Below, piece after piece: positions 757 to 41,751 of a stretch of DNA of 43,869 bases; position 1 is the first letter of the stretch, and each line of letters opens with the position of its first letter. The translations under genes and the position numbers were made by a program. The notes below the pieces were generated by a model. It ran no database searches. It was not told the DNA's origin and worked only from the letters and a program-made list of their open reading frames with translations. Source of the stretch: a virus; IMG/VR virus record IMGVR_UViG_3300024520_000149, positions 1-43,869 of that record, one strand, 5' to 3'.

Positions 757-1002
757 TTACTTTGTGTAAGTTAGAACCGTGTAGGTTCCAATGAAGACAC
801 CTAGCGCGTACATAAAGACCCCCAGTGTTCCGTAGCGGGCGATGTTCTGAATGATTGAAACGATTATCAACATACTTACCATTGTTTCTATGAACATCAG
901 ACTCGCTGCAAGACTGGGACTCTTGTGTGAGATAGCACGAATACTCGCAGCTCCGATGGCTGCGATGATAACTCCCCCCATTAAGTAAAAGAATAATTCC
1001 AT
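757..1002 (-). CDS. small integral membrane protein, 81 aa
   Basis: The product begins MELFFYLMGGVIIAAIGAAS and has three hydrophobic stretches: residues about 3-21, 35-52 and 58-77. They are separated by short polar turns (ISHKSPS, NIARYG). The open frame extends upstream, but that extension overlaps the preceding gene in another frame and reads as Arg-rich nonsense, so the internal ATG at 1002 is chosen. A partial second copy (43764-43869) confirms the C-terminus. It could be a holin or another early membrane effector; nothing in the sequence decides this. Confidence 0.7.
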   Translation of the reverse strand: MELFFYLMGGVIIAAIGAASIRAISHKSPSLAASLMFIETMVSMLIIVSIIQNIARYGTLGVFMYALGVFIGTYTVLTYTK

Positions 1003-1049
1003 ATCTGAGTTATGGGGAGGAGCAGCCGTAGCTGCATCCCCCCGACGGC

Positions 1050-1349
1050 TCAAACGTCGAACTCGCCATTTTTGACCCCATCTACGAAGATCCGCCATTC
1101 TTCCTTGTTGAATATCAGAGTTGTCTTCGTTGGGTCTTTGGTGTCGCGTACCTTCACGTGCCGTTCCGTCTTCTTGACGGAGACACAGTAGTGGACACCT
1201 GGTTTGCTTCCCGATGGGCATACGAAACCGTCTTCGGTGACTTTGTGGCCGAGGGCGATGCGTCGCTTCTCAGCACTTGTCATACCTGGAAGGTATCTTT
1301 CCATCTCTTTTGTGATTGTCAGGTCGCGTTTCAAGGTACTTCTCCTCAT
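1050..1349 (-). CDS. DUF397-like domain protein, 99 aa
   Basis: The C-terminal half carries a pattern I recognise from DUF397 proteins: a Cys-Val-Ser strand (HYCVSVKK), then VRDTKDP, then FNKEEWRIFVDGVKNGEFD. The family is usually described from actinobacteria and some small-genome bacteria, and its function is unknown. The N-terminal half is basic and helical. The ATG at 1349 is preferred to the GTG at 1382, because a promoter with a -10 at 1373-1378 would start transcription between the two. It is the first gene of the leftward operon. The DUF397 assignment comes from motif memory. Confidence 0.65.
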   Translation of the reverse strand: MRRSTLKRDLTITKEMERYLPGMTSAEKRRIALGHKVTEDGFVCPSGSKPGVHYCVSVKKTERHVKVRDTKDPTKTTLIFNKEEWRIFVDGVKNGEFDV

Positions 1350-5447: not shown

Positions 5448-6164
5448 ATGGACGCTAAGATTTCTAAAATTAAAAAAGACGTTCTTAATGCAAGTTACGC
5501 AGCGGGCGCATGTCACATAGGTTCAGCCTTATCTTGTGTTTCAATATTAGTTCCTCTCCTTTACAGCAAAAAAGATGAGGACATTTTTATATTTGGCAAA
5601 GCCTCGGGAGTGGCCACTTTCTATGCAATCCTTGCCGACCAAGGGCTCTTCCGCAAAGAAAACCTTCCGTTATTCTTGAAAAGATACCCACTTCCTTCTA
5701 AAGTAGTTCCTGGAGTTATACATTCTGTAGGTTCCATGGGACACGGTTTATCGGTTGCAGCGGGTTTGGCATACGCAGACCGAACAAGAAATGTTTACGT
5801 TCTCCTAAGTGACGGAGAGTGCCAAGAGGGTTCGACTTACGAGGCTTGCCTGTTCGCAGGACAACATGATTTAACTAACTTACATGTAATTGTTGACAAT
5901 AACGGACTACAAGCAGGTGGAAGAACTTGTGACATATTAAACTTAACAGACACTTTCGAGTTTATGTGTAAAGCACTACCTAACTGTCAGGTTGTAAAAA
6001 CAGTAAAGGGGGATGGTGTGGCCAGATTTGAGAATGACTATACCTGGCACTATAAGAATTTAGATGATAAAATCCTAAAGGAAGCCCTAGAAGATATTGA
6101 TGACCCCCAAAAATACGAAAAAAGGAGGAAATTTTACGATAAAAAAGGAGTGTCAACACTGTAA
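5448..6164 (+). CDS. transketolase-like N-terminal (TPP-binding) subunit, 238 aa
   Basis: The sequence follows the TPP-binding half of transketolase: GACHIGSALSCVSIL near the start, GSMGHGLSVAAGLAYA, then LLSDGECQEGSTYEACLFAGQ and IVDNNG, the GDGx(~25)NN-type TPP/Mg site. It would pair with the C-terminal subunit at 6712-7176 to move a two-carbon ketol unit, here probably for a sugar precursor. The conserved part ends near KEALEDI (about residue 217); the last 20 residues are supplied by the start of the inserted HNH gene. A second, diverged copy of the 3' end survives downstream (6653-6715). Confidence 0.87.
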   Translation: MDAKISKIKKDVLNASYAAGACHIGSALSCVSILVPLLYSKKDEDIFIFGKASGVATFYAILADQGLFRKENLPLFLKRYPLPSKVVPGVIHSVGSMGHGLSVAAGLAYADRTRNVYVLLSDGECQEGSTYEACLFAGQHDLTNLHVIVDNNGLQAGGRTCDILNLTDTFEFMCKALPNCQVVKTVKGDGVARFENDYTWHYKNLDDKILKEALEDIDDPQKYEKRRKFYDKKGVSTL

Positions 6165-6657
6165 GAGGGTGTTCGACGCCTTAATTTATAACGTAAGGAA
6201 AGGATATGGGAAACACTGTTCAAAAAAATGCAGCAATCTATATAACAATCTTGGTTTCAAGGTTGGGCATGTTGGGCACCACACAAAGGAGGGGGATAGA
6301 AAGATTGGGATTGCAAGCAGGAATAGGAAAAGGAGGGGGTGGACACCCGAAGAAAGAAAGAGGCAGTCAGAGAGGCTTAAAAAGCACTATGACAAGATTG
6401 GTAGAAAGAAATGTACAAGCAGAGACGGGAGAAGGAAATGTTCCCAATGTGTCGAGTGGAGAAAAAAGGTTTTTAAACGGGACGACTATACTTGCCAGAT
6501 TTGTAAAAAGCGGGGTGTCTATATTGAATCAGACCACATTAAGTCTTGGAGCAAGCACAAGGAATTTAGGCATGATATATCAAATGGCAGAGCGCTGTGC
6601 CTGCCCTGTCACCAAAAGACACCGAACTACAAGAGTAAGGCAAAGACACAAGTATGA
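6097..6657 (+). CDS. HNH homing endonuclease inserted at the 3' end of the transketolase gene
   Basis: This 186-aa protein has an N-terminal zinc motif (CQHCKR ... HCSKKCSN), a basic middle (RKRRGWTPEERKRQSERLKKH) and a C-terminal HNH domain: YTCQICKKRG, then ESDHIKSWSKH, then NGRALCLPCHQKT. The HNH core resembles the one fused to the amidotransferase at 10576-11322. The gene starts inside the transketolase frame and ends next to a relic of the transketolase 3' end. It appears to be a free-standing mobile endonuclease that arrived by homing and brought a foreign gene end with it. Confidence 0.87.
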   Translation: MMTPKNTKKGGNFTIKKECQHCKRVFDALIYNVRKGYGKHCSKKCSNLYNNLGFKVGHVGHHTKEGDRKIGIASRNRKRRGWTPEERKRQSERLKKHYDKIGRKKCTSRDGRRKCSQCVEWRKKVFKRDDYTCQICKKRGVYIESDHIKSWSKHKEFRHDISNGRALCLPCHQKTPNYKSKAKTQV

Positions 6658-6715
6658 GTGGCACTACAAGAACCTCACAGAAGAATTATTAGAGTCAGCA
6701 CTCAAACAAGTATGA
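6653..6715 (+). pseudogene. displaced 3' end of the transketolase N-subunit gene
   Basis: These 20 codons plus stop read YEWHYKNLTEELLESALKQV and match YTWHYKNLDDKILKEALEDI at the end of the intact upstream frame (10 of 20 identical). The stop overlaps the ATG of the C-terminal subunit (ATGA), the coupling style of this operon. This therefore looks like the original gene end, separated from its body by the HNH insert. Confidence 0.8.
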
Positions 6716-7176
6716 GCGATTTAAGACAAGCATTTTTCGACGAGATGGAAGTTCTCGCCAAGGAAGACGAGAACGTAATTGTACTTGTTGGGGATTTGGG
6801 GTATTCCTTCTGTGAAGGATACAAAGAGAGATACCCAGAGCAGTTTATAAACGCGGGAGCTGCAGAACAAAATATGGTTGGGGTAGCGGCGGGGTTAGCT
6901 ATCGCTGGCATGAGACCCTATGTCTATAGTGGGGCTATTTTTGCCATAATGCGTCCGTATGAATTTATAAGGGACGACGTGGCATTCAATAACTTAAACG
7001 TGAAAATCATCGGCACGGGGGCAAGTGATTTTTTAGGATTTACTCATGTCCTAGGAGATACGGAAGATGAAGTAGCTATGGTAAACACACTTCCCAACAT
7101 ACATGGAGAAAGAGCAACAGAAGAAACTTTGGGTAAATTATTAAGGAGTAAGGGACCTAAATACATTCGCTTATGA
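6712..7176 (+). CDS. transketolase-like C-terminal (pyrimidine-binding) subunit, 154 aa
   Basis: The pyrimidine-binding fold is recognisable: VIVLVGDLGYS, then FINAGAAEQNMVGVAAGLAIAGMRPYVYS with the catalytic Glu of the EQNM motif, then a phosphate/pyrimidine region (FLGFTHVLGDTEDEVAM). The family is usually about 300 aa with an additional C-terminal domain; here only the Pyr domain remains, so it is a minimal version. The start at 6712 is chosen over 6658 because it overlaps the relic stop codon and the extra N-terminal residues belong to the relic. Works with 5448-6164. Confidence 0.85.
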   Translation: MSDLRQAFFDEMEVLAKEDENVIVLVGDLGYSFCEGYKERYPEQFINAGAAEQNMVGVAAGLAIAGMRPYVYSGAIFAIMRPYEFIRDDVAFNNLNVKIIGTGASDFLGFTHVLGDTEDEVAMVNTLPNIHGERATEETLGKLLRSKGPKYIRL

Positions 7177-7259
7177 TAAAAGGACAAAAACACTCAGAAG
7201 AGTTGTGTCATTCTTGCCATTTAAAAGCAGATAAAAATAAAATAGAATTATGCGTGTAG
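7173..7259 (+). CDS. 28-aa zinc-knuckle peptide
   Basis: The frame MIKGQKHSEELCHSCHLKAD then KNKIELCV fits exactly between its neighbours: ATGA overlap with the transketolase subunit upstream and overlap with the aminotransferase start downstream. It has CHSCH and a final Cys, so it might bind zinc. The gap would otherwise be unexplained. Function unknown. Confidence 0.45.
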   Translation: MIKGQKHSEELCHSCHLKADKNKIELCV

Positions 7260-8293
7260 ATTTCGTAAACTTCGGCGCACAATATCGCCAACACAAAGAA
7301 GAATACGATGAGGCTATTTTTAAGTGTCTCAACGAAGGCAAGTTGATTCTCCAAGAGGATGTAGAGGAATTTGAAGGTAACTTGGCGAAGTTCTTAGGAA
7401 TGAAATATGCAGTAGGAACTAGTAGCGGGACAGATGCATTAACTCTTGCTTTGAAAGCAAAGAGAAGGATTTATCCCGAGTTACGGGCAGGCTCTAGTCG
7501 GGTGGATATTCCAGGCTATACATTCAAGGCTACGATGGAAGCGGCTAGTCACGCTGGCTATTCGCCTATAATAAGTGACATCACAAGAGACAGACTATTA
7601 CCAGAGAATCGGGCTGTGGGGACATCAGTTCCTGTTTATCGCGGGCGGTGTATACCAGTGCATATTGAAGGGTCTGTTTGTAAGGCAAAAGGAACCGTCC
7701 TTGTAGAGGATGCTTGCCAAGCAATAGGAGCTAGGGGAGTGGGTTACTCGGGAACAGCTTGTTATTCATTCTACCCAGCGAAGATTTTGGGAGGATTCGG
7801 AGACGGTGGTGCTGTGGTTACGAACGACAAAGGGGTAGCAGACGAGGTTCGCCTTCTAAGACATCATTGGCAGACTGATAAGGACGAGGAGTATGGGTTC
7901 TGCTCAAGACTAGACAACGTACAGGCAGCTTTCCTTAATGTGAAGCTAAAGTATTTGCCCGGGATTCTTGAAAGACGACAAAAGATAGCTGAAATGTATT
8001 TAGAAGCCCTCACGGACGTTGTGGGGCTTCCTGTAGCCTCTGTTGAGCGCGTTTGGCAAGACTTTGTGTGTACGGTAGAGAATCCCAAAGAACTTCAAGA
8101 GCATCTTAAGAAAAATGGAATAGAAACTCTTGGAGTTGGAATGATTCCACCACATATTGCCCTAAATACTGGGCAGTCACTTCCAAATACAGAAAAGCTC
8201 TATAGAGAAATGATACGACTTCCTCTCAACGAAACTCTGACCGACGATGACGTGAACTATGTGATTTCTAAAGTAAATGAGTTATATGATTAA
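7250..8293 (+). CDS. DegT/DnrJ/EryC1/StrS-family sugar aminotransferase
   Basis: A PLP-dependent aminotransferase acting on nucleotide-linked keto-sugars. Visible motifs: GTSSGTDALTLAL (cofactor phosphate region), VEDACQAIGA (Asp contacting the PLP ring, Gln), and YSFYPAKILGGFGDGGAVVT with the Schiff-base Lys in SFYPAKILG. RLDNVQAAFL follows. The length of 347 aa is normal for the family. It probably acts on the 4-keto (or 3-keto) sugar made by the neighbouring dehydratase. It overlaps the dehydratase gene by 17 nt. Confidence 0.92.
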   Translation: MRVDFVNFGAQYRQHKEEYDEAIFKCLNEGKLILQEDVEEFEGNLAKFLGMKYAVGTSSGTDALTLALKAKRRIYPELRAGSSRVDIPGYTFKATMEAASHAGYSPIISDITRDRLLPENRAVGTSVPVYRGRCIPVHIEGSVCKAKGTVLVEDACQAIGARGVGYSGTACYSFYPAKILGGFGDGGAVVTNDKGVADEVRLLRHHWQTDKDEEYGFCSRLDNVQAAFLNVKLKYLPGILERRQKIAEMYLEALTDVVGLPVASVERVWQDFVCTVENPKELQEHLKKNGIETLGVGMIPPHIALNTGQSLPNTEKLYREMIRLPLNETLTDDDVNYVISKVNELYD

Positions 8294-9104
8294 AGGAAAA
8301 AGAATTTTAATAGCGGGTTCAGCGGGTTCGATAGGTTCGGAGTTAGTTCGGCAACTCGCCCCCAACAACACCATTTACAGTGTTGATATAAACGAGTCGG
8401 GACTCTTTGACTTGGAGCAGACTCTCAATACTCCAAATGTAACCTCAAGAGTCAGTGACATACGAGACAGAAGAACTGTTGAGGACATCTTCCAAGACTT
8501 CAAACCGCACATAGTCATAAATTGTGCCGCTTATAAACACGTTCCTCTAATGCAGTACACCCCAGAGGAGGCAATTAAGACCAACGTACTCGGACACCTT
8601 AACTTGGTTCATACAGCAAAGACATGGGAGTGTGTAGAGAAGTTTATTTACATAAGCACTGACAAGGCTGTGAGTTCCCACTCAATTATGGGAGCAACTA
8701 AACTACTAGGAGAAAGAATCACTACAAACCAAGGATATACTGTGATTAGATTTGGTAACGTAATGAACTCTAGGGGGAGCTTATTTAAAATTTGGCAACG
8801 TCAGATAGACAACGGGGAGGACATTACAGTGACGGATGAGCGAATGGAGCGCTATTTTATGACTATCCCCGAAGCTGTGGAGCTTGTGATAGAGGCGGCT
8901 GTCGATAGTAAAGGAGGAGATACTTACATCATGGACATGGGCAAAAAGGTCAACATTTATGAGTTAGCGAAGAAGATAGTAAAGGGTTCCGACGTTGAAA
9001 TCAAAATCACAGGAATCAGAGAAGGAGAGACATTGACAGAGGAGATTATGACTTCCGAGGAAAAGCAAAGAGCAACATTAAAAGGTAAATTCTATATATT
9101 ATGA
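8277..9104 (+). CDS. FlaA1/PseB/CapD-type nucleotide-sugar dehydratase, 275 aa
   Basis: A short-chain dehydrogenase fold for UDP-sugars: GSAGSIGSELVRQL (NAD-binding), INCAAYKHVPLMQ, STDKAVSSHSIMGATKLLGE with the Met-x3-Lys version of the catalytic pair, RFGNVMNSRGS, then MTIPEAVELV. FlaA1/PseB enzymes convert UDP-GlcNAc to a 4-keto-6-deoxy product. It lacks the membrane domain of full CapD/WbpM. An alternative start is the ATG at 8286. Product and substrate are inferred from the family. Confidence 0.9.
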   Translation: MSYMIKGKRILIAGSAGSIGSELVRQLAPNNTIYSVDINESGLFDLEQTLNTPNVTSRVSDIRDRRTVEDIFQDFKPHIVINCAAYKHVPLMQYTPEEAIKTNVLGHLNLVHTAKTWECVEKFIYISTDKAVSSHSIMGATKLLGERITTNQGYTVIRFGNVMNSRGSLFKIWQRQIDNGEDITVTDERMERYFMTIPEAVELVIEAAVDSKGGDTYIMDMGKKVNIYELAKKIVKGSDVEIKITGIREGETLTEEIMTSEEKQRATLKGKFYIL

Positions 9105-10018
9105 AAATCCTAATTACAGGAAGCAGGGGGTTTGTTGGGACAGAGACAGTCAAGTTATTAGAAAAGGAAGTGGAGGTTACAAGGATAGGTTCGGGGTCTA
9201 CTTCAAAACTAGAGATGTCATCGTTCCCCGAGTGTAAACATGAGATTATAGGCTTCGACCTGATGGATGGTTACGATATTCGTGACCGAGACCTATTAGA
9301 GAATGTAATAGAAAGCGAGAACCCAGATCGCATCTTGCACCTAGCAGCTGTAGCAAGGTTTGCAGACGCAGATGCTGACCCTAAACTAGCTTTCGAGACT
9401 AACGTGGACGGTACACGAAACGTAGCGGAATTGGCTGAGGCTTATCACGTTCCAGTCGTGTATGCCTCAACAGGTTCGGTTTATATGCCCATCCTTAACA
9501 TGGAGGACTCTATCAAGGAAGACTGGCGCGGTGTAGGTAACTCAGTCTATGGTTGTACTAAATACATGGGAGAGACGTTAATTAGAGGCGTAAACCCACA
9601 TATCATTCTTAGATACGCACATCTATATGGTAAAGAAAAAAGGACGCACGGTCTTATAGGAGGTTTTATGGATAGGATATCTCGTGGGCTGGCACCCACC
9701 CTTTATGGTGGAAAACAATCAAACGATTTCACTTACATACTTGACGTTGCTGCAGCAAATGTCGCAGCACTAACAGCTCCGTGGGATAAGTGGAACCAAG
9801 CATACAATATCGGTACAGGAGAAGAACTTACCGCAGAGGAAGCAGGTAAAATAATTTGTGAACACGCAGGATACAAAGGAGAAATAGACGTTAAAAAAGG
9901 CAGAACGGTAGACCCCGACAGATTCTTTTTCGATTGCAGCAAAGCTGAGCGAATGCTCGGGTTCAAAGCCGAGTACGGTTTTGCTGATGGACTCAAACAT
10001 ATGTTCAAGGAGGACTAA
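9101..10018 (+). CDS. NAD-dependent nucleotide-sugar epimerase/dehydratase, 305 aa
   Basis: An extended short-chain dehydrogenase: MKILITGSRGFVGTETVKLL (Rossmann), LHLAAVARFADADADPKLAFETNVDGT, ASTGSVY, then YGCTKYMGE with catalytic Tyr-x3-Lys, and LRYAHLYG. The C-terminal half binds the sugar (FADGLKHMFKED end). It is a GalE/RfbB-like relative; whether it epimerises or dehydrates cannot be read from the sequence. It overlaps the previous stop by 4 nt. Confidence 0.88.
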   Translation: MKILITGSRGFVGTETVKLLEKEVEVTRIGSGSTSKLEMSSFPECKHEIIGFDLMDGYDIRDRDLLENVIESENPDRILHLAAVARFADADADPKLAFETNVDGTRNVAELAEAYHVPVVYASTGSVYMPILNMEDSIKEDWRGVGNSVYGCTKYMGETLIRGVNPHIILRYAHLYGKEKRTHGLIGGFMDRISRGLAPTLYGGKQSNDFTYILDVAAANVAALTAPWDKWNQAYNIGTGEELTAEEAGKIICEHAGYKGEIDVKKGRTVDPDRFFFDCSKAERMLGFKAEYGFADGLKHMFKED

Positions 10019-10020
10019 AT

Positions 10021-10491
10021 ATGAATGAGTTTTTAGATGGAGGTATGGGTTGGCCGAAGAGAGCAGCTATAATCAACTCCGTGAAAGAGAAAGGTGGTAC
10101 CATCTGGTATCCCGAACTTTCAAACTTCTGCCCCGCCAAGTTTGGCGTTCGCTGCATTGTACATTCACACGTTTGGGTAGGTGATGAGGTGATTCTCGGT
10201 GACGATGTCCGCATCCAAGCCTTCGCCTTCATTCCGAACGGTGTAATCGTCGGAGACAATGTCTTCATTGGGCCACGTGTTACATTTACCAACGACAAGC
10301 ATCCACCGTCAACGAACTGGGACACAACCTTTGTTCAAGATGGAGTTTCGATTGGTGCTGGTGCAATAATTCTTCCTGGTCTTGTACTGGGGAAGAACTG
10401 CGTTATCGGAGCCGGAGCCGTTGTCACAAAGAGCATCCCACCGAATGAGACTTGGTGGGGTAATCCAGCAAAGCCAAGGGGAGGGGCTTGA
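10021..10491 (+). CDS. left-handed beta-helix acyltransferase, 156 aa
   Basis: Hexapeptide repeats of the form (I/V/L)Gxxxx are clear: VGDEVILGDDVRIQA, VGDNVFIGPRVTFTNDKHP, GAGAIILPGLVLGKNCVIGAGAVVTKSI and the terminal NPAKP. The FTNDKHP segment resembles WbpD-type UDP-sugar N-acetyltransferases and places a catalytic His. It likely acylates the amino group introduced by the aminotransferase. Confidence 0.88.
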   Translation: MNEFLDGGMGWPKRAAIINSVKEKGGTIWYPELSNFCPAKFGVRCIVHSHVWVGDEVILGDDVRIQAFAFIPNGVIVGDNVFIGPRVTFTNDKHPPSTNWDTTFVQDGVSIGAGAIILPGLVLGKNCVIGAGAVVTKSIPPNETWWGNPAKPRGGA

Positions 10492-10505
10492 GCCTCCCCA
10501 CTATT

Positions 10506-10574
10506 GCCAGTTGAATGGTTCGTCGGTAGCATCCATTAACTACTGTGAATTGGGTTCGATTCCCTACTCTGGCA
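10506..10574 (+). tRNA. tRNA-like sequence, probably degenerate
   Basis: The 3' part has a near-consensus T arm (GGGTTCGATTCCC) followed by CTGGCA, which pairs with TGCCAG at the 5' end. Between them is a D-loop-like TCGTCGGTAG with ATG/CAT as a short stem. The anticodon stem pairs poorly, U33 is missing, and there is no room for a variable loop. No CCA is encoded. It sits in the gap between two sugar genes and touches the next start codon. I treat it as a tRNA remnant. Confidence 0.35.
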
Positions 10575-10575
10575 C

Positions 10576-11322
10576 ATGCAAACACAATGCCGCAGATGTG
10601 TTTTAGATAAGTCCGCCGAGGAGATAACCTTTGACGAGAAGGGGGTGTGTAACTTCTGCCACATGGCACAGAGGGAGTTAGATTTAATTGGTCACAGGTG
10701 GTGCGAGAGAGCTAATGAAGGGGAGGTCGTTTCGTTCCCACCCACACTTCCTAATGACTTGTTCTTCCCTGTACCTTCTCTATATGATAGACTAATAGGT
10801 ATGGTTTTTGAAAAAGGACATAAGATATTTCTCGGGCGCAAACACTCTGAGGCAACAAAGGAGAAAATGCGTGAGAAAGCCACGGGGCGTAAGCATAATG
10901 AAGAGACAAAAGAAAAATTAAGACAGGGTCGTATTGGTATGAAGCACACAGAAGAGACGAAAAAAAAGATGAGCGAACAAAGGGGGGGAGAAAACAATGC
11001 ATTTTATGGGAAAAAACACACAATGGAAACACAGGAAAGATTGTCTGCGTATAGAGGTGAGTTAAAAGGTAACTGGAAAGGTGGTATCACACCGATTCGT
11101 AAGAAAGAAAGAAGCACCTTTGAGTATCAAAATTGGAGAAAAGCAGTAAAAGAAAGAGATGAGTATAAGTGTCTACGGTGTGGTTCAGAAGACAATTTAG
11201 AGGCAGACCATATTAAATCGTTTGCTTATCATCCTGAGCTGCGATTTGATATTGAGAATGGGCGTACTTTATGTCGCGATTGTCATAAAAAAACAGACAG
11301 TTATGGAAAAGTTGAAAAATAA
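10576..11322 (+). CDS. N-acetyl sugar amidotransferase N-terminus fused to a NUMOD3-HNH endonuclease
   Basis: Residues 1-35 carry the zinc-finger start typical of WbpG/PseA-type N-acetyl sugar amidotransferases: CRRCVLDKSAEEITFDEKGV followed by CNFCHMAQ. From about residue 80 the protein becomes a homing endonuclease: repeated GRKHSEATKEKM, GRKHNEETKEKL, GMKHTEETKKKM elements (NUMOD3) and an HNH core (YKCLRCGSED, EADHIKSFAYHPEL, NGRTLCRDCHKKT). The rest of the amidotransferase follows as a separate gene (11303-12175). The amidotransferase has thus been split by a mobile HNH unit; the halves may reassociate or the N-part may be spliced. Confidence 0.85.
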   Translation: MQTQCRRCVLDKSAEEITFDEKGVCNFCHMAQRELDLIGHRWCERANEGEVVSFPPTLPNDLFFPVPSLYDRLIGMVFEKGHKIFLGRKHSEATKEKMREKATGRKHNEETKEKLRQGRIGMKHTEETKKKMSEQRGGENNAFYGKKHTMETQERLSAYRGELKGNWKGGITPIRKKERSTFEYQNWRKAVKERDEYKCLRCGSEDNLEADHIKSFAYHPELRFDIENGRTLCRDCHKKTDSYGKVEK

Positions 11323-12175
11323 ATATTCATGTTTGATTGGTTTGAGCGGAGGTGCTGATTCGTCGTATGTACTACACAAGGCGGTAGAGCTGGGGCTTAA
11401 ACCCTTGTGTTTTTCGGTAGACAACGGTTGGAACGACCCCAAGGCAGACGAGAACATCATGCGGCTTGTCGAGACCTTAAAGGTTCCGTTCTATCGCTAC
11501 ACCATAGACCTTAAAAAGTTCCGCGACTTACAATCAGCTTTTATAAAAGCGGGATTGAAGAACATCGAAATCCCCACAGACCACATTTTAATGGCAACAA
11601 CTTATGAGATGGCTGCTAAGAACGGTATCAAGTATGTCTTGTCAGGTGGGAATGTAGCAACCGAGTCTATAATGCCCGCCAGTTGGGGCTACAACGCCAG
11701 AGACCTTGTTCACATCAGAGATGTTTATAGGAAAATGAAGGGAAAAAAACTTACGGGGTTGCCTGTTTGTTCTCTCTTAAAGTGGAACTACTACAAGTGG
11801 ATTAAGGGCATCAAGATACTCTACCCTTTAGATGTATGGGGTTACAACAGACAAGACGCCATTTGGATACTGGAGGAGAAGTACGGTTGGAAAAACTACC
11901 ACGAAAAGCATTGCGAGAACACATTTACTTGGTGGTTCCAAAACTACTATCTATTCGAGAAGTTCGGAATAGATAAACGTAAAGCTCACTTATCGTCGCT
12001 GATAAACTCGGGACAGATGACAAGAGAGGAAGCTTTAGAAGAATTGCAGAAATGTCCTGTTTACCCAACGATAGGCTTAGAGCAAAGAGTGACGAGGTAC
12101 CCCAAAGGAAGTCACGACGACTACGCCAAGGATAGGTACGACTTAATAGCTAAGATAGTTAAATGGAAATCTTAG
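11303..12175 (+). CDS. N-acetyl sugar amidotransferase, catalytic C-terminal part (WbpG/PseA type)
   Basis: A PP-loop ATP pyrophosphatase: CLIGLSGGADSSYVLHKAVE (PP-loop SGGADS), then FSVDNGWND, IEIPTDHIL, YVLSGGNVATE and a long C-terminal region normal for the family. WbpG/PseA-type enzymes convert an N-acetyl group to an acetamidino group with ammonia from a glutamine amidotransferase. Its usual zinc-finger N-terminus is on the previous gene. I chose the ATG at 11303, which overlaps the HNH stop; the 27 extra upstream codons lie inside the HNH gene. Confidence 0.88.
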   Translation: MEKLKNKYSCLIGLSGGADSSYVLHKAVELGLKPLCFSVDNGWNDPKADENIMRLVETLKVPFYRYTIDLKKFRDLQSAFIKAGLKNIEIPTDHILMATTYEMAAKNGIKYVLSGGNVATESIMPASWGYNARDLVHIRDVYRKMKGKKLTGLPVCSLLKWNYYKWIKGIKILYPLDVWGYNRQDAIWILEEKYGWKNYHEKHCENTFTWWFQNYYLFEKFGIDKRKAHLSSLINSGQMTREEALEELQKCPVYPTIGLEQRVTRYPKGSHDDYAKDRYDLIAKIVKWKS

Positions 12176-12627
12176 GAGAGTTCACAACGTCTTTAGTCAA
12201 GGCACTGGGTGAAATAGACAAAAGCTGGGAGGAGTATGACGGGCTTGTAGTGTGTGGTTCCCACTCTCCGACCGACATAGAGGAGAGGATTGAGAAGATA
12301 AAAGAAGCTGGGGAGTCGGGCAGACCGTTTTTAGGAATATGTCACGGACATCAACTTGCGGCAATACAGTGGGCGAGGGCTAATGGTATACTAGATGCTA
12401 CGAGCGAGGAGTTCGGTGAGGGAACTTTTGTTGTTAAAAGACGTGACCAACTGGATGTTGGTTTGTTAGATGGAGAGACTTATTGGAGCAACTACGCGGT
12501 GGCGATTGATTGGCAGAAACCAGACTACTTCTTTACCACCCCATCGCACCCCGAGTACCAGAGCTCCAAACACAGTCCTCATCCTTTACTCGTTAATTTC
12601 CTCAAAGCATGCAAAAAAGCCACATAA
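12163..12627 (+). CDS. class I glutamine amidotransferase, 154 aa
   Basis: The Cys-His-Glu triad is visible: LGICHGHQLAA with the nucleophilic Cys, and SHPEYQSS with His and Glu, followed by HPLLVNFLKA as in CTP-synthase-type glutaminase domains. It would hydrolyse glutamine and feed ammonia to the neighbouring PP-loop amidotransferase, replacing the HisH-like partner seen in WbpG/PseA systems. It is short for the family (about 190-200 aa). It overlaps the neighbours at both ends. Confidence 0.85.
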   Translation: MEILGEFTTSLVKALGEIDKSWEEYDGLVVCGSHSPTDIEERIEKIKEAGESGRPFLGICHGHQLAAIQWARANGILDATSEEFGEGTFVVKRRDQLDVGLLDGETYWSNYAVAIDWQKPDYFFTTPSHPEYQSSKHSPHPLLVNFLKACKKAT

Positions 12628-12797
12628 CATTTAGTCTAGATGACAAGGAAATCACTGCGAGGGGGTTTTCTTCTTTGATACACAATATCCTTTTGATTCA
12701 AAATACAAAGATTAAGGAAATGGGAGAGATTGTCGACGTTCGAGACATTAGTGAAGATGAAGATAAAATTAATATAGAAATTACTTATGCAAGTTAG
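12609..12797 (+). CDS. hypothetical protein, 62 aa
   Basis: A small acidic protein with alternating strand-like segments (HITFSLDDKEITARG ... INIEITYAS). It overlaps both neighbours by 11-19 nt, so it is embedded in the sugar operon. No family recognised. Confidence 0.55.
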   Translation: MQKSHITFSLDDKEITARGFSSLIHNILLIQNTKIKEMGEIVDVRDISEDEDKINIEITYAS

Positions 12798-13656
12798 AGT
12801 AGCGCCGTCACTAGGAGAGTTAGAAGGGACACATCAAGATGTGTGGGGCACTGATGTATATCCTGAAGTTTTTGGTGAGTTTTTTATTGGATGGCGGGAA
12901 GAGCCGACAGTTTTCTTCGGACTCTACGGGTTGCCCGATTTCTTTACACTGTGGAGACACGAGGGAGACAGGTACATTCTGTGGGCTGGCACAGACATAA
13001 CTCACTTTCAATCGGGGTATTGGTTAGAAGAAGGCGGCAACGTAAGAATAGACTCCACGCCCTTAGCACAGTGGATAGAGAAGAACTGCGAAAGCTGGGT
13101 GGAGAATGAAGTGGAACGTGTGGCACTGGAAGATATGGGTATTACAGCTAAAGTTTGTCCTTCTTTTATGGGAGACGTAGACGACTATGAAGTTAAATAC
13201 CAACAACAAGACCGCCCCCAAGTATATCTTAGTGTGAGTGGAAATAACTTTGACCTATATGGGTGGCACACAATAGAACAGATTGCAGACCAGTGCAAAG
13301 TGGACTTTCATTTATACGGCAACACAGAGCCGTGGGAGAGCAAGCATATAAATGTGTTCGTCCACGGGAGGGTTCCAAAGGAGCAAATGAACGAGGAGAT
13401 TAAATATATGCAGTGTGGGCTTAGACTTTGTGTAGAGATGGATGGATTTTCGGAGGTGACTGCAAAAAGTGTTCTATGGGGGCAGTATCCTATTGTCGCC
13501 GAGAGTTACAAGTACCCTCATTTAGATTCGTTTCGAAACACAAATCATTTAGTACAGCAATTGAATAGGTTGAAGTATAAGAAAGGCCCTAACCCAGTAC
13601 GAGATTACTATATTAGTAGATTAAATTCTTTCCCGTGGAACATAAAAAGGAATTAG
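12787..13656 (+). CDS. putative GT-B glycosyltransferase, 289 aa
   Basis: The C-terminal half resembles the nucleotide-sugar-binding half of GT-B enzymes: a predicted strand PQVYLSVSGNN, then HLYGNTEPWESKHINVFVHG, MQCGLRLCVEMDGFSEVTAK and WGQYPIVAESYKYPH, with the E-x7-E-like DGFSEVTAK element. The N-terminal half (FFIGWREEPTVFFGLYGL) would hold the acceptor. Its neighbours make sugar donors. The exact family is not certain. Confidence 0.65.
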   Translation: MQVRVAPSLGELEGTHQDVWGTDVYPEVFGEFFIGWREEPTVFFGLYGLPDFFTLWRHEGDRYILWAGTDITHFQSGYWLEEGGNVRIDSTPLAQWIEKNCESWVENEVERVALEDMGITAKVCPSFMGDVDDYEVKYQQQDRPQVYLSVSGNNFDLYGWHTIEQIADQCKVDFHLYGNTEPWESKHINVFVHGRVPKEQMNEEIKYMQCGLRLCVEMDGFSEVTAKSVLWGQYPIVAESYKYPHLDSFRNTNHLVQQLNRLKYKKGPNPVRDYYISRLNSFPWNIKRN

Positions 13657-13676
13657 AGGCTTCTGTAAGGGATAAT

Positions 13677-14594
13677 ATGACAAAAAATAATAAGACTTGC
13701 CATTTTCTATATGTACCCTTCACTGGCTTAGGACTCTACGGAGGATACCGAGGTCCGCGGTGGCTGAAGAACAGGATACAGATATTCAAACAGTTCGTGG
13801 TTCCTTCACTGCTAGCGCAGACAGACCGAGACTTCATTCTTTGGGTGAGTTGGAGACACGAAGAACGTAACAATAAACAGGTGCTTGATTTGCTAGAGTA
13901 TTTACGTCGCGGAGGATTGAGGGTGGTGTTCACGTATTCGGGCGTCTGCTTCTGGGACGATAAGTATGACGACGTTACGGCTAGGGAACGTCTTGTGTTT
14001 GCGGTTCATCGTTCAGTGGGGGAATTGCACGACGCGATGGGAGAGTGTGACGAAGTTCTGATGACTATTCAACCCAGTGACGATTGTTACCACAAGAAGT
14101 TTGTGGCAGAGACTAAGTACATGCTAAGGGCAAGGAAGTTGCAGGTGTTCGGCTATAAGAGGGGTTACGTCATGGACTACAAGAGTGGGCGGCTTGCAGA
14201 ATGGAACCCAGCGACAACACCGCCGTTCTATACAATCAAATTCAACAGAGACACGTTCACTGACCCGTTCAAACATATGAAATACACGGGGCCGTATAAA
14301 TCACATGAGTATGTTAAGGACTACCTGAAGGCTAACTACTCAGAAAAACGCGGCTTCATCGTAGGAACTCATGGGGAAAACATATCTACAATCTTCGACC
14401 ATCCGTTTACTGGGGCTGACGTAGACGGCTCTGTCCTCTCAGACTTTGGTTTACTGGGAGTTGCGCCGTTGCATATCAGAATGAGTTTACGAAAGATGGC
14501 GATGCGAAAGCTGCCCTACGGATGGCAGCGCAAGCTACGTTACCTACTGGGGGAGAAGTTCTTTTCTGGGATGTATAATTGGCTGAGGGCATGA
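13677..14594 (+). CDS. putative rhamnosyl-transferase-like glycosyltransferase, 305 aa
   Basis: The N-terminus (RWLKNRIQIFKQFVVPSLLA, QTDRDFILWVSW) and the later QPSDDCYHKKFV match my memory of the putative rhamnosyl transferase (Rhamno_transf) family, in which a Asp-Asp pair would bind the metal and donor. The frame is open from 13635. The ATG at 13677 is preferred because AAGGG lies 7 nt upstream and it avoids overlapping the previous gene. It probably adds a sugar to the glycan built by this island. Confidence 0.65.
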   Translation: MTKNNKTCHFLYVPFTGLGLYGGYRGPRWLKNRIQIFKQFVVPSLLAQTDRDFILWVSWRHEERNNKQVLDLLEYLRRGGLRVVFTYSGVCFWDDKYDDVTARERLVFAVHRSVGELHDAMGECDEVLMTIQPSDDCYHKKFVAETKYMLRARKLQVFGYKRGYVMDYKSGRLAEWNPATTPPFYTIKFNRDTFTDPFKHMKYTGPYKSHEYVKDYLKANYSEKRGFIVGTHGENISTIFDHPFTGADVDGSVLSDFGLLGVAPLHIRMSLRKMAMRKLPYGWQRKLRYLLGEKFFSGMYNWLRA

Positions 14595-15217
14595 AGTATT
14601 TTAGAGGCACGAAGCATCACAAAAAGTTCTGGGAAGAGCGCCAAGTTGACTGGGAAAAGGACTATTTGGATACGTGGAAACACCCCCATAGGTTTGCCAT
14701 CTCTGAAATACTCTCGACCTTTTATTGGTTGTTAATGGTGGAGGTTGGTTGTGGTAGTGGTCCGAACTTGGTTAACATTAACAAGCATTTTCCCGGTCGG
14801 CAGGTGGGAGGTGTCGACGTCAACAAGGATGCTATTGAGTTAGCGGCTAAGACCCTTCAGGGGGCGCATCTTAAGGTGAGTTCGGTGGAAGACATAATGA
14901 TGTCCGACAACTCGGCGGACTTGGTGTTGAGTGATATGACGATGATATATGTTAGTAACCCCGACAAGGCTATTAGAGAAATAAAGCGCATAACACGGCG
15001 ACATGTGCTGTTTTGCGAGTTGCACAGCAATAGCTGGTGGGGTAGAATGAAGCTAAGGTATACATCGGGTTATCACGCTCATAATTATAAGAGGTTATTA
15101 ACTAAACACGGCTTTAAGGACATCATCATAGTCAAGTTTCCATCAGGCACATGGCCAGGTGGCAACCCACAAAAGGACTACGGATACTTCATTAAAGCTC
15201 GTAAACCAAAACGATGA
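14591..15217 (+). CDS. SAM-dependent methyltransferase, 208 aa
   Basis: Class I methyltransferase: VEVGCGSGPNLVNI (motif I), VGGVDVNKDAIELAAK with the acidic ribose contact, SADLVLSDMTMIYV (motif IV region), and CELHSNSWWG. It likely methylates a sugar or a glycan end. The ATG at 14591 overlaps the preceding stop (ATGA) and is preferred to the ATG at 14579. Last gene of the sugar island. Confidence 0.85.
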   Translation: MKYFRGTKHHKKFWEERQVDWEKDYLDTWKHPHRFAISEILSTFYWLLMVEVGCGSGPNLVNINKHFPGRQVGGVDVNKDAIELAAKTLQGAHLKVSSVEDIMMSDNSADLVLSDMTMIYVSNPDKAIREIKRITRRHVLFCELHSNSWWGRMKLRYTSGYHAHNYKRLLTKHGFKDIIIVKFPSGTWPGGNPQKDYGYFIKARKPKR

Positions 15218-40020: not shown

Positions 40021-40434
40021 CTAGATGCTGTACCCTGCCGGTTGTTTGAGCTTCTGTGCGTAAAACTGAGTCAAGGCCTGGTTAGGTGTGGGCTTCACCA
40101 TTACAGGGCCGAACTGAGTTTGTACTGCTATGACATCGCCGCGCATGATGTTCAATACGACGGCTTTGCCGTTCTGCTCCAAGGTCAAGGTCTGGACGAC
40201 CTTGACTTTGTGCATATAGACAATACTGTGCGCACAGGCTCTGGTTTTACCAGCTTTTTTATTTACAGCTTTCAGGGCGTCTTGCATAGGCATTCCGCCA
40301 CCGAATTTCAACTCAAGCAACATAGCCATTTGTGCCTGAGAGTCGCACAAGATTGCCTTCATGGGGCCAACTTGTGCTTGTGCAGACGCGCACCAAACGA
40401 GCAGTGAGATGCTAGCAAAGAGATACCGTAACAT
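40021..40434 (-). CDS. secreted/periplasmic protein of unknown function, 137 aa
   Basis: The N-terminus, MLRYLFASISLLVWCASAQA, is a classic signal peptide with a likely cleavage after AQA. The mature part has two Cys (ILCDSQ and TRACAHS) that could form a disulfide, and a strand-rich C-terminus (VVLNIMRGDVIAVQTQFGPV). An AAAGGGG Shine-Dalgarno lies 5-11 nt upstream, unlike most genes here. Base use is GC-richer than the neighbours, suggesting a separate origin. It is likely expressed on its own. Confidence 0.75.
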   Translation of the reverse strand: MLRYLFASISLLVWCASAQAQVGPMKAILCDSQAQMAMLLELKFGGGMPMQDALKAVNKKAGKTRACAHSIVYMHKVKVVQTLTLEQNGKAVVLNIMRGDVIAVQTQFGPVMVKPTPNQALTQFYAQKLKQPAGYSI

Positions 40435-40587: not shown

Positions 40588-41637
40588 TGCAATAATTTCC
40601 GTTTTGCGGTGGGAATGATGTAGCCTAGCAGTGTGTGACACACTATACCTAGATATCCGATATTTTTTAGGGCTATGATAAGTCACTTAGCCTCGGACAC
40701 GCATACCGCGGAAACGTCTAGCCGCTACATCATTCCTACAACAACCTTTAAGGGTTGGGTGGGTACTGGCTGCTCGATTGTCTTTCGACTGAAACAGCGG
40801 ATACCCACCCAACTCTCGATAACTCTCTGAATGTAGGAGGCAAGGATTATGTTATACCTAGAATAAATCCTTGCATGGTGGCGCAAACTACATTTGTAAT
40901 TCATTTTACCACCGTACCACCTGTTTCCTCCGCCGAGGTGCCAAGTGTGCCTTATAGCCGTTTGCGGGGGCGATTATTCAGCCACTCCTACATTCAGAAA
41001 ACTATCTCTGAAACAAATAGGGGTAATCACTCACCCCTATCTTCAGCTTCTATTTTTTCTTGTAGAAGCCTTGTCCTCCAACAGTGGAATTTCCTTCTTC
41101 CTATTCTTATGAAGAAGTTGTCTAAGGCTATCTCTAGTCTTGACCACCACACACTGTTGTCGGCATTACGACTTACTCTTGAGCAGCACATCTCGTCAAG
41201 TGAACCCCCCAGGAGGTTAAGTATGCGAGAGGCAGACATAAGAAGTTGTCGCATTCTTTCCTCCTATGTTTAGAGTGGGATATTGCTACCCCACTCGTGT
41301 TACCTAGAGGGACAAACCTCAAGAGCCAAAGAGTTTTGCGCGCCTCTTATGACCGTTGGTGTGTCTTAATCGCCCAAGGACAGACAGCCAGCTCGAAGAT
41401 GTGGTTTTGTTGTTGCCATTGCAATAAGCAAAAATTGCAACACCAATAATGTACAAAACCAACAACAACGCTCTTGACGTGCATGCCTTCTTCGTCGATT
41501 TTTCTTCCACACAGAGCATTTGAACACTTCATTTGTGCTCCTAACTGCGACACTGGTGCCGCAAGCTCCTCTCGAAAGAGAAGCCAATGAATGCATCTCA
41601 CCTATCAAGGTGAGCTTGCGGCACCAGTATCTTTTTC
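40588..41637 (+). ncRNA. giant ornate RNA candidate, about 1.05 kb
   Basis: A gene-free region with many long, mostly perfect helices: 40609-40624 with 40724-40739 (16 bp, one G-U); 40754-40765 with 40802-40813 (12 bp); 40826-40839 with 40985-40998 (14 bp) enclosing 40840-40848 with 40866-40874 (9 bp); 41017-41024 with 41033-41040; 41046-41052 with 41063-41069; 41094-41100 with 41111-41117; 41223-41228 with 41249-41254; 41273-41279 with 41290-41296; and 41552-41568 with 41612-41628 (17 bp). The last is followed by TCTTTTTC as in a terminator. A weak promoter precedes it. The plus strand is favoured but not proven. Size, complexity and phage setting recall GOLLD/ROOL-class RNAs. Confidence 0.65.
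41552..41636 (+). terminator. terminal 17-bp hairpin with T-run
   Basis: 41552-41568 pairs perfectly with 41612-41628; inside are a GAAA-capped stem (41571-41582) and a CTCACC/GGTGAG stem. ATCTTTTTC follows. Long-range stems closed by a T-run can end transcription, and the helix may also protect the RNA 3' end. Confidence 0.55.
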
Positions 41638-41645
41638 AATGAGCT

Positions 41646-41677
41646 AAAAACAAAACGCACCATAGTAGGTGCGCTTT
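41646..41677 (-). terminator. terminator of the leftward operon
   Basis: CGCACC (41656-41661) pairs with GGTGCG (41668-41673); on the minus strand it is followed by TTTTGTTTTT. It closes the leftward operon just after its last small frame. Confidence 0.85.
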
Positions 41678-41682
41678 GTTGT

Positions 41683-41751
41683 TTACTCTTCGGTAGCTTC
41701 TTCAGTAGCTTCTTCCGCTACCTCCTCTCCTTCGTTTTTTATTTCATCCAT
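41683..41751 (-). CDS. acidic 22-aa peptide
   Basis: The frame MDEIKNEGEEVAEEATEEAT then EE is extremely acidic and built of a near-repeat (EEAT). It lies between the 111-aa gene and the terminator. It could be a tiny real protein; evidence is only position and composition. Confidence 0.35.
   Translation of the reverse strand: MDEIKNEGEEVAEEATEEATEE

Follow-up and report, generated by a model that had tools for sequence, protein, structure and literature searches.

Positions 40588-41637 of a phage genome are crowded with long perfect helices, and the question raised by this locus is what kind of molecule these helices belong to. The original prediction was that the whole kilobase forms a giant ornate RNA, read from the plus strand. 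The window, that is, the whole stretch of DNA analysed, comprises the 43,869 nucleotides of the IMG/VR record IMGVR_UViG_3300024520_000149, a linear tailed phage with a terminase and an M23 endolysin, the TerL of which is less than 40% identical to its best-placed matches in named phages. In this 44-kb phage, positions 5448-15217 (plus strand) hold a nucleotide-sugar/glycan cluster (split transketolase halves, a DegT aminotransferase, epimerases, a hexapeptide transferase and a methyltransferase) with an ORF for an HNH/NUMOD3 homing-type endonuclease inside it (10576-11322); the cluster is not adjacent to the RNA described below.

Helices, strand and small genes of the region

The excess of long perfect helices is real. 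The region holds four that reach 12 bp or more, where 0.02 are expected (mean of 100 dinucleotide shuffles, maximum 1), and nine of at least 9 bp against 1.7 in dinucleotide shuffles. The four longest are the following:

41552-41568 with 41612-41628: 17 bp
40826-40839 with 40985-40998: 14 bp
40612-40624 with 40724-40736: 13 bp
40754-40765 with 40802-40813: 12 bp

The mean folding z of the region, calculated in 140-nt windows, is -2.9 on the plus and -3.1 on the minus strand, compared with ~0 in 101 windows elsewhere. The structure comes in patches, pronounced at 40611-40890, 41031-41100 and 41521-41660 but missing at 41101-41240 (z near 0); instead of one continuous structure of ~1 kb we found it concentrated in 40604-41006, 41011-41040 and 41550-41631. 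The assignment to the plus strand did not hold either, as the minus strand folds better (whole-region z -10.5 versus -7.2) and carries both the conserved RNA and the flanking genes. The terminator-like plus-strand end exists insofar as a T-run follows 41631, but the minus strand also has hairpin-plus-T-run signals (41679-41646 and 41040-41011), and the weak promoter proposed ahead of the region is not distinguishable from chance (3 sites in a consensus scan versus 2.9 by chance). The region had been described as free of credible genes, but two minus-strand ORFs led by Shine-Dalgarno (SD) sequences were found. The minus-strand features, read from 41751 down to 40021, are as follows:

41683-41751, minus: tiny acidic ORF MDEIKNEGEEVAEEATEEATEE, which stops directly ahead of the next terminator
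41646-41679, minus: terminator of the upstream gene, GCGCACC/GGUGCGU followed by UUUUGUUUUU (z -7.2)
41550-41631, minus: long hairpin, 17 bp perfect and ~20 bp in all (MFE -55.9, z -10.2), immediately ahead of the SD that leads the 61-aa ORF
41347-41532, minus: 61-aa ORF with SD AGGAG at 41542-41538; Cys-rich, C-x4-C ... C-x2-C
41027-41254, minus: 75-aa ORF with SD AGGAGG at 41265-41260
41011-41040, minus: terminator-like hairpin AUAGGGGU..ACCCCUAU followed by UUUGUUU (z -4.8; read from the sequence), overlapping the 75-aa ORF at its stop codon
40818-41006, minus: manA-class domain, closed by a P1 with 22-nt arms (41006-40985 with 40839-40818)
40750-40817, minus: hairpin directly after the manA-class domain, with the 13-bp helix GUUGGGUGGGUAU/GUACCCACCCAAC (MFE -38.2 kcal/mol, z -8.8)
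40604-40744, minus: multi-branched domain with a closing helix of ~13 bp, GUAGGAAUGAUGUAGC/GCUACAUCAUUCCCAC (MFE -53.6, z -4.7)
40021-40434, minus: gene for a signal-peptide-bearing protein of 137 aa; SD AGGGG

The 61-aa and 75-aa ORFs are probably real small genes. The former gives a weak TRASH-like zinc-finger match (PF24273, E 0.001, short of the Pfam cut-off) and a codon score not above the null; the latter has a codon score of 0.07, on a par with that of the 137-aa ORF, and a folding z near 0 inside. The stretch that holds the SD and the start of the 75-aa ORF can pair with parts of its early coding sequence (41185-41265, minus), and the modelled pairing might constitute a translation-control hairpin. 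The terminator scan did not list the terminator-like hairpin at 41011-41040, and no T-run lies behind the 40750-40817 hairpin. The 137-aa protein has no Pfam or PHROG match, and no relatives of the neighbouring 137-, 170-, 61- and 75-aa proteins were found in viral contigs. A 172-aa plus-strand ORF was rejected as a gene: it belongs to no family, its codon score is at the null level and it lies antisense to the conserved RNA.

Outside the manA-class domain the kilobase consists of separate elements, namely the two small genes plus terminator or mRNA hairpins of an ordinary kind. Evolution supports ~190 nt of the structure, whereas ~400 nt are supported only by their folding.

A manA-class RNA on the minus strand

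The proposed likeness to GOLLD or ROOL was checked by cmscan against all 4227 Rfam families. GOLLD, ROOL, OLE and raiA gave no match even at E values up to 5; the best match was manA (RF01745), on the minus strand at 41012-40830, with model positions 1-192 of 192 aligned and 33.0 bits (E = 1.9e-6 when the region is searched with every family, 1.5e-8 when the record as a whole is searched with manA only). Since this score lies below the curated gathering cut-off of 55.2 bits, the RNA is not a manA member as Rfam itself defines the family. Judged by its sequence and predicted fold, the minus-strand RNA 41006-40818 is almost certainly a divergent manA-class RNA. The prediction of a structured noncoding phage RNA with structure beyond chance was sound in itself; it erred in the strand, in the class and in the size, which is ~190 nt rather than 1 kb. 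The following conserved parts lie within the domain:

40974-40984, minus: invariant element UGGCUGAAUAA, the 5' side of P2 and the internal loop
40946-40954, minus: conserved element UAAGGCACA, the 3' side of P2 (alignments A1 and A2)
40840-40874, minus: P5 hairpin GCAAGGAUU/AAUCCUUGC, a 9-bp helix

Columns 8-18 of alignment A1 are invariant, except for column 10, which is G or A, and UAAGGCACA is common to the window RNA, to its relatives L132, L156 and L194 (see below) and to others. The RNA has the invariant UGRCUGAAUAA and UAAGG core and the full-length manA architecture, with covariation-supported P1, P2/P2b and P5; the mismatches are one C-U in P2b and one U-U in the consensus P5. The P0 hairpin, UUCAGAgauaguuuUCUGAA, can form but competes with the 22-nt-arm P1, which is favoured by 11 kcal/mol (predicted energies -76.0 for the long P1 and -64.8 kcal/mol for the P0 alternative).

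Canonical manA (RF01745; Weinberg et al. 2010, PMC2864571) and the window RNA have in common the P1-closed multi-branch fold, the UGRCUGAAUAA/UAAGG sequences, the positions of P2, P2b and P5, and an occurrence in phages, 5' of genes (at a distance of ~400 nt in the window). The window RNA differs in its P1, which is extended to ~20 bp and would displace the 5' P0 hairpin, in its lengthened P5 helix, in the missing aCUU insert before P2b and in not being placed directly behind a promoter: a -10-like hexamer lies just upstream of 79 of the 93 canonical copies, while no promoter-like sequence was found just ahead of the window RNA. The manA-II motif (PMC11109978), a candidate riboswitch whose name derives from the same gene as that of manA, is by its description a separate class, a three-stem junction of Leptotrichia. 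GOLLD and ROOL (PMC12286853) are likewise large structured phage RNAs; the window RNA departs from them in giving no covariance-model match, in its conserved domain of only ~190 nt and in its surroundings, the window being devoid of tRNA genes and hence of the tRNA-island setting of GOLLD and ROOL. No tmRNA was found in the window.

Relatives and compensatory changes

Neither the full region nor its manA part gave a useful match as a blastn query against phages; relatives were found by pattern scans of viral contigs. The first motif, GGAGTGRCTGAATAA, picked up mostly canonical manA of the cyanophage type, along with coincidental matches in coding sequence; gapped scans with tighter criteria gave the intermediates L132/L141 and L156 and then a broad set. 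L156 scores 55.4 bits with RF01745, above the cut-off, and L132/L141 score 49.6, just short of it; GUGGCUGAAUAA and UAAGGCACA(C) are common to these intermediates and the window RNA, and all of them are without the aCUU insert. A third pattern, UGGCUGAAUAA N6-36 AAGGCACA, gave 39 further loci, ~35 of them manA-like by inspection. At E values up to 1, RF01745 detects 25 of the 41 core-pattern records, 13 of them above the cut-off, and as the best members pass the model (up to 79 bits), the broad set is firmly tied to manA. To the other 16 records (~4 of them chance hits), most of which have the full core, the model is blind at the same threshold. The survey reveals a diversity of manA-type phage RNAs that goes far beyond what the present Rfam model picks up.

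In an alignment of 29 sequences, 97.7% of the cells of P1, P2, P2b and P5 are paired, a value that falls to 52-56% when the partner is slid by one column. The alignment contains 118 double changes versus 29 in shuffles, none of 500 shuffles reaching as many, and P1 alone occurs as GGGAG/CUCCC, GUGAG/CUCAC, GACCG/CGGUC, GCAUUG/CAAUGC, GGAUGG/CCAUCC and GCUUC/GAAGC; the P3/P4 portion is variable. A covariance model (R1) built from 22 of the 29 aligned sequences, with the window RNA and L194 left out, finds a single site in the 44-kb window, 40991-40833 on the minus strand (46.6 bits, E = 1.2e-9, a rough value from a short calibration). R1 also recognizes a further manA-like RNA (74.8 bits) at L130:4673-4852 (minus); because this copy turned up in a contig fetched through a chance coding match, such RNAs are suggested to be common. 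In bacterial genome contigs the pattern had 26 matches, all chance by inspection, and R1 found none in 229 genomes of the class to which Psychrosphaera belongs, a search that had no positive control.

The closest relative, L194 (viral contig, IMG/VR 3300035698_026991), is 78% identical to the window RNA over 139 nt (E = 1.6e-22) and folds on its own to the same plan. Of 63 comparable pairs of the window fold 57 are conserved in L194 (34 unchanged, 5 changed on one side and 18 double-changed) and 6 are broken, while slid-partner controls gave only 1-4 double changes. P5 still pairs, one of its pairs being broken and 4 changed on both sides, and a number of changes fall in the outer portion of P1, which argues that the two RNAs share the long P1 (~20 bp) where canonical manA has the P0 hairpin. 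Among the changed or wobble pairs, 7 are G-U in the minus sense (A.C on the plus strand) versus 2 in the reverse, which supports the minus strand. Computation establishes the manA homology, traced through graded relatives, the strand, and the preservation of P1, P2, P2b and P5 through compensatory changes. The check for homologues and compensatory changes that had been recommended was positive for the manA-type domain; the structures 41631-41550, 40817-40750 and 40744-40604 and both small ORFs had no match in the viral-contig loci compared.

Both RNAs have a hairpin directly after P1, although its sequence differs. In L194 the 5' arm of this hairpin, GUCCAGUUCU/AGAAUUGGAC, is part of the 3' strand of the long P1; as the arm is shared, hairpin and P1 would be mutually exclusive in the manner of an expression platform, and by its sequence the overlap is a possible switch. 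It is absent from the window. The L194 RNA ends 69 nt ahead of the start codon of a DUF397 gene, which has an SD, whereas the downstream gene of the window RNA is ~400 nt off.

At its other end the window carries an ORF (1050-1382, minus) with the DUF397-like C-terminus HYCVSVKKTERHVKVRDTKDPTKTTLIFNKEEWRIFVDGVKNGEFDV, the product of which resembles that of the L194 gene directly downstream of the RNA (tblastx, 48% over 62 aa). This is the sole clear protein likeness between the window and the L194 stretch compared.

Several contigs with manA-like RNAs contain tmRNA-related sequences. At L190:4380-4459 (plus) and L195:3940-4021 (minus), RNAs of ~80 nt align to the tmRNA family from one end to the other, at 68.6 and 51 bits; their mRNA-like part is nearly all replaced by a loop of 14-17 nt, they have a G3-U70 alanine-type acceptor pair, and they adjoin the manA-like RNA on the same strand as anticodon-less "mini tmRNAs". 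A lone T-arm-like sequence, GAACAGGTTCGAATCCTGTC, lies between the two RNAs at L195:4090-4115 (minus). L206, a phage contig with a manA-like RNA before an Hsp20 gene, has a permuted tmRNA at 999-1193 (plus; RF04321, 85.6 bits), and full tmRNA genes with the tag GTQSAFALAA are present in the phage contigs L199 (4802-5132, plus) and L209 (3945-4275, minus).

Role of the RNA

We know of no ligand or mechanism for manA, which to our knowledge is an orphan candidate regulatory RNA. Taken as a whole, the locus is probably best explained by a minus-strand manA-class core within a leader that acts in cis on the 137-aa gene; cis action as such is only modestly favoured. The RNA sits in a minus-strand gene block of the phage, between the 75-aa ORF with its terminator-like hairpin and the gene of the exported 137-aa protein, in the leader of which it would be transcribed. 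The P1-closed multi-branch domain would fold co-transcriptionally, perhaps stabilised by a ligand or a protein, and together with the hairpins 40817-40604 it could set the extent of transcription, or the accessibility or stability of the 137-aa message. A leader element fits the placement of the relatives, which lie 24-69 nt ahead of a start codon with an SD in no fewer than four independent groups (L188/L207, L194, L201 and L203; 24-40 nt in all but L194), with the L206 copy ~180 nt ahead of its Hsp20 gene, and it fits earlier reports of manA RNAs as candidate riboswitches in potential 5' UTRs, those of ibpA chaperones included (PMC2864571). Against it, the 137-aa gene, although on the same strand, starts ~400 nt from the RNA, and no clear expression platform (a terminator or sequestered SD) overlapping P1 was found in the window.

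The heterogeneity of the relatives' downstream genes, and the copies that end in terminators or lie among tRNA/tmRNA genes, would suit the same manA-class RNA working alone, either in trans or as a machine-like RNA, after being cut from a longer minus-strand transcript. A terminator-like hairpin lies within 120 nt of P1 in 17 of 93 canonical copies versus 2% of controls, L193 and L205 have a terminator or T-run right after P1, and the L190 and L195 copies adjoin tmRNA-like RNAs. The short distances to start codons in the independent groups speak against such a stand-alone RNA, as does the window itself, where a separate 3' end is unmarked, and we regard this reading as the less likely one, though a serious competitor. 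We also consider, as a rather unlikely extension, that manA is one branch of a large and ancient phage RNA class, with the window RNA and L194 as a long-P1 subclass, and not a one-pathway cyanophage riboswitch; members might act in trans or in RNA islands with tRNAs and anticodon-less tmRNA-like RNAs. If so, 41006-40604 of the window would be one three-domain RNA of ~400 nt.

A giant ornate RNA of ~1 kb on either strand, whether GOLLD/ROOL-like or of a new class, is very improbable. The overall folding z is strong on both strands and the three adjacent domains of 41006-40604 are very stable (z -10.6 with the terminator hairpin), but the Rfam search was negative for large RNAs, two SD-led ORFs and a terminator-like hairpin break up the region, z is near 0 at 41101-41240, relatives were found for the manA part only and the window lacks tRNAs; for the plus strand the reading was rejected, with Rfam, ORFs, strand and homology all contrary. 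That the hairpins serve replication, packaging or recombination as DNA, with an incidental resemblance to manA, is hardly tenable: those at 41631-41550, 40817-40750 and 40744-40604 have no RNA relatives among the loci compared, but the manA domain has conserved single-stranded sequence, a multi-branch topology, more G-U pairs on one strand and a homology far beyond chance.

As a divergent, long-P1 variant of manA, the window RNA is of interest mainly for having led to a far wider range of manA-type RNAs in phages. Its relatives extend manA well past the Rfam model and place it in new gene contexts (DUF397, Hsp20 and other small phage genes), and these contexts, together with the strong covariation, make the structure and function of manA easier to test.
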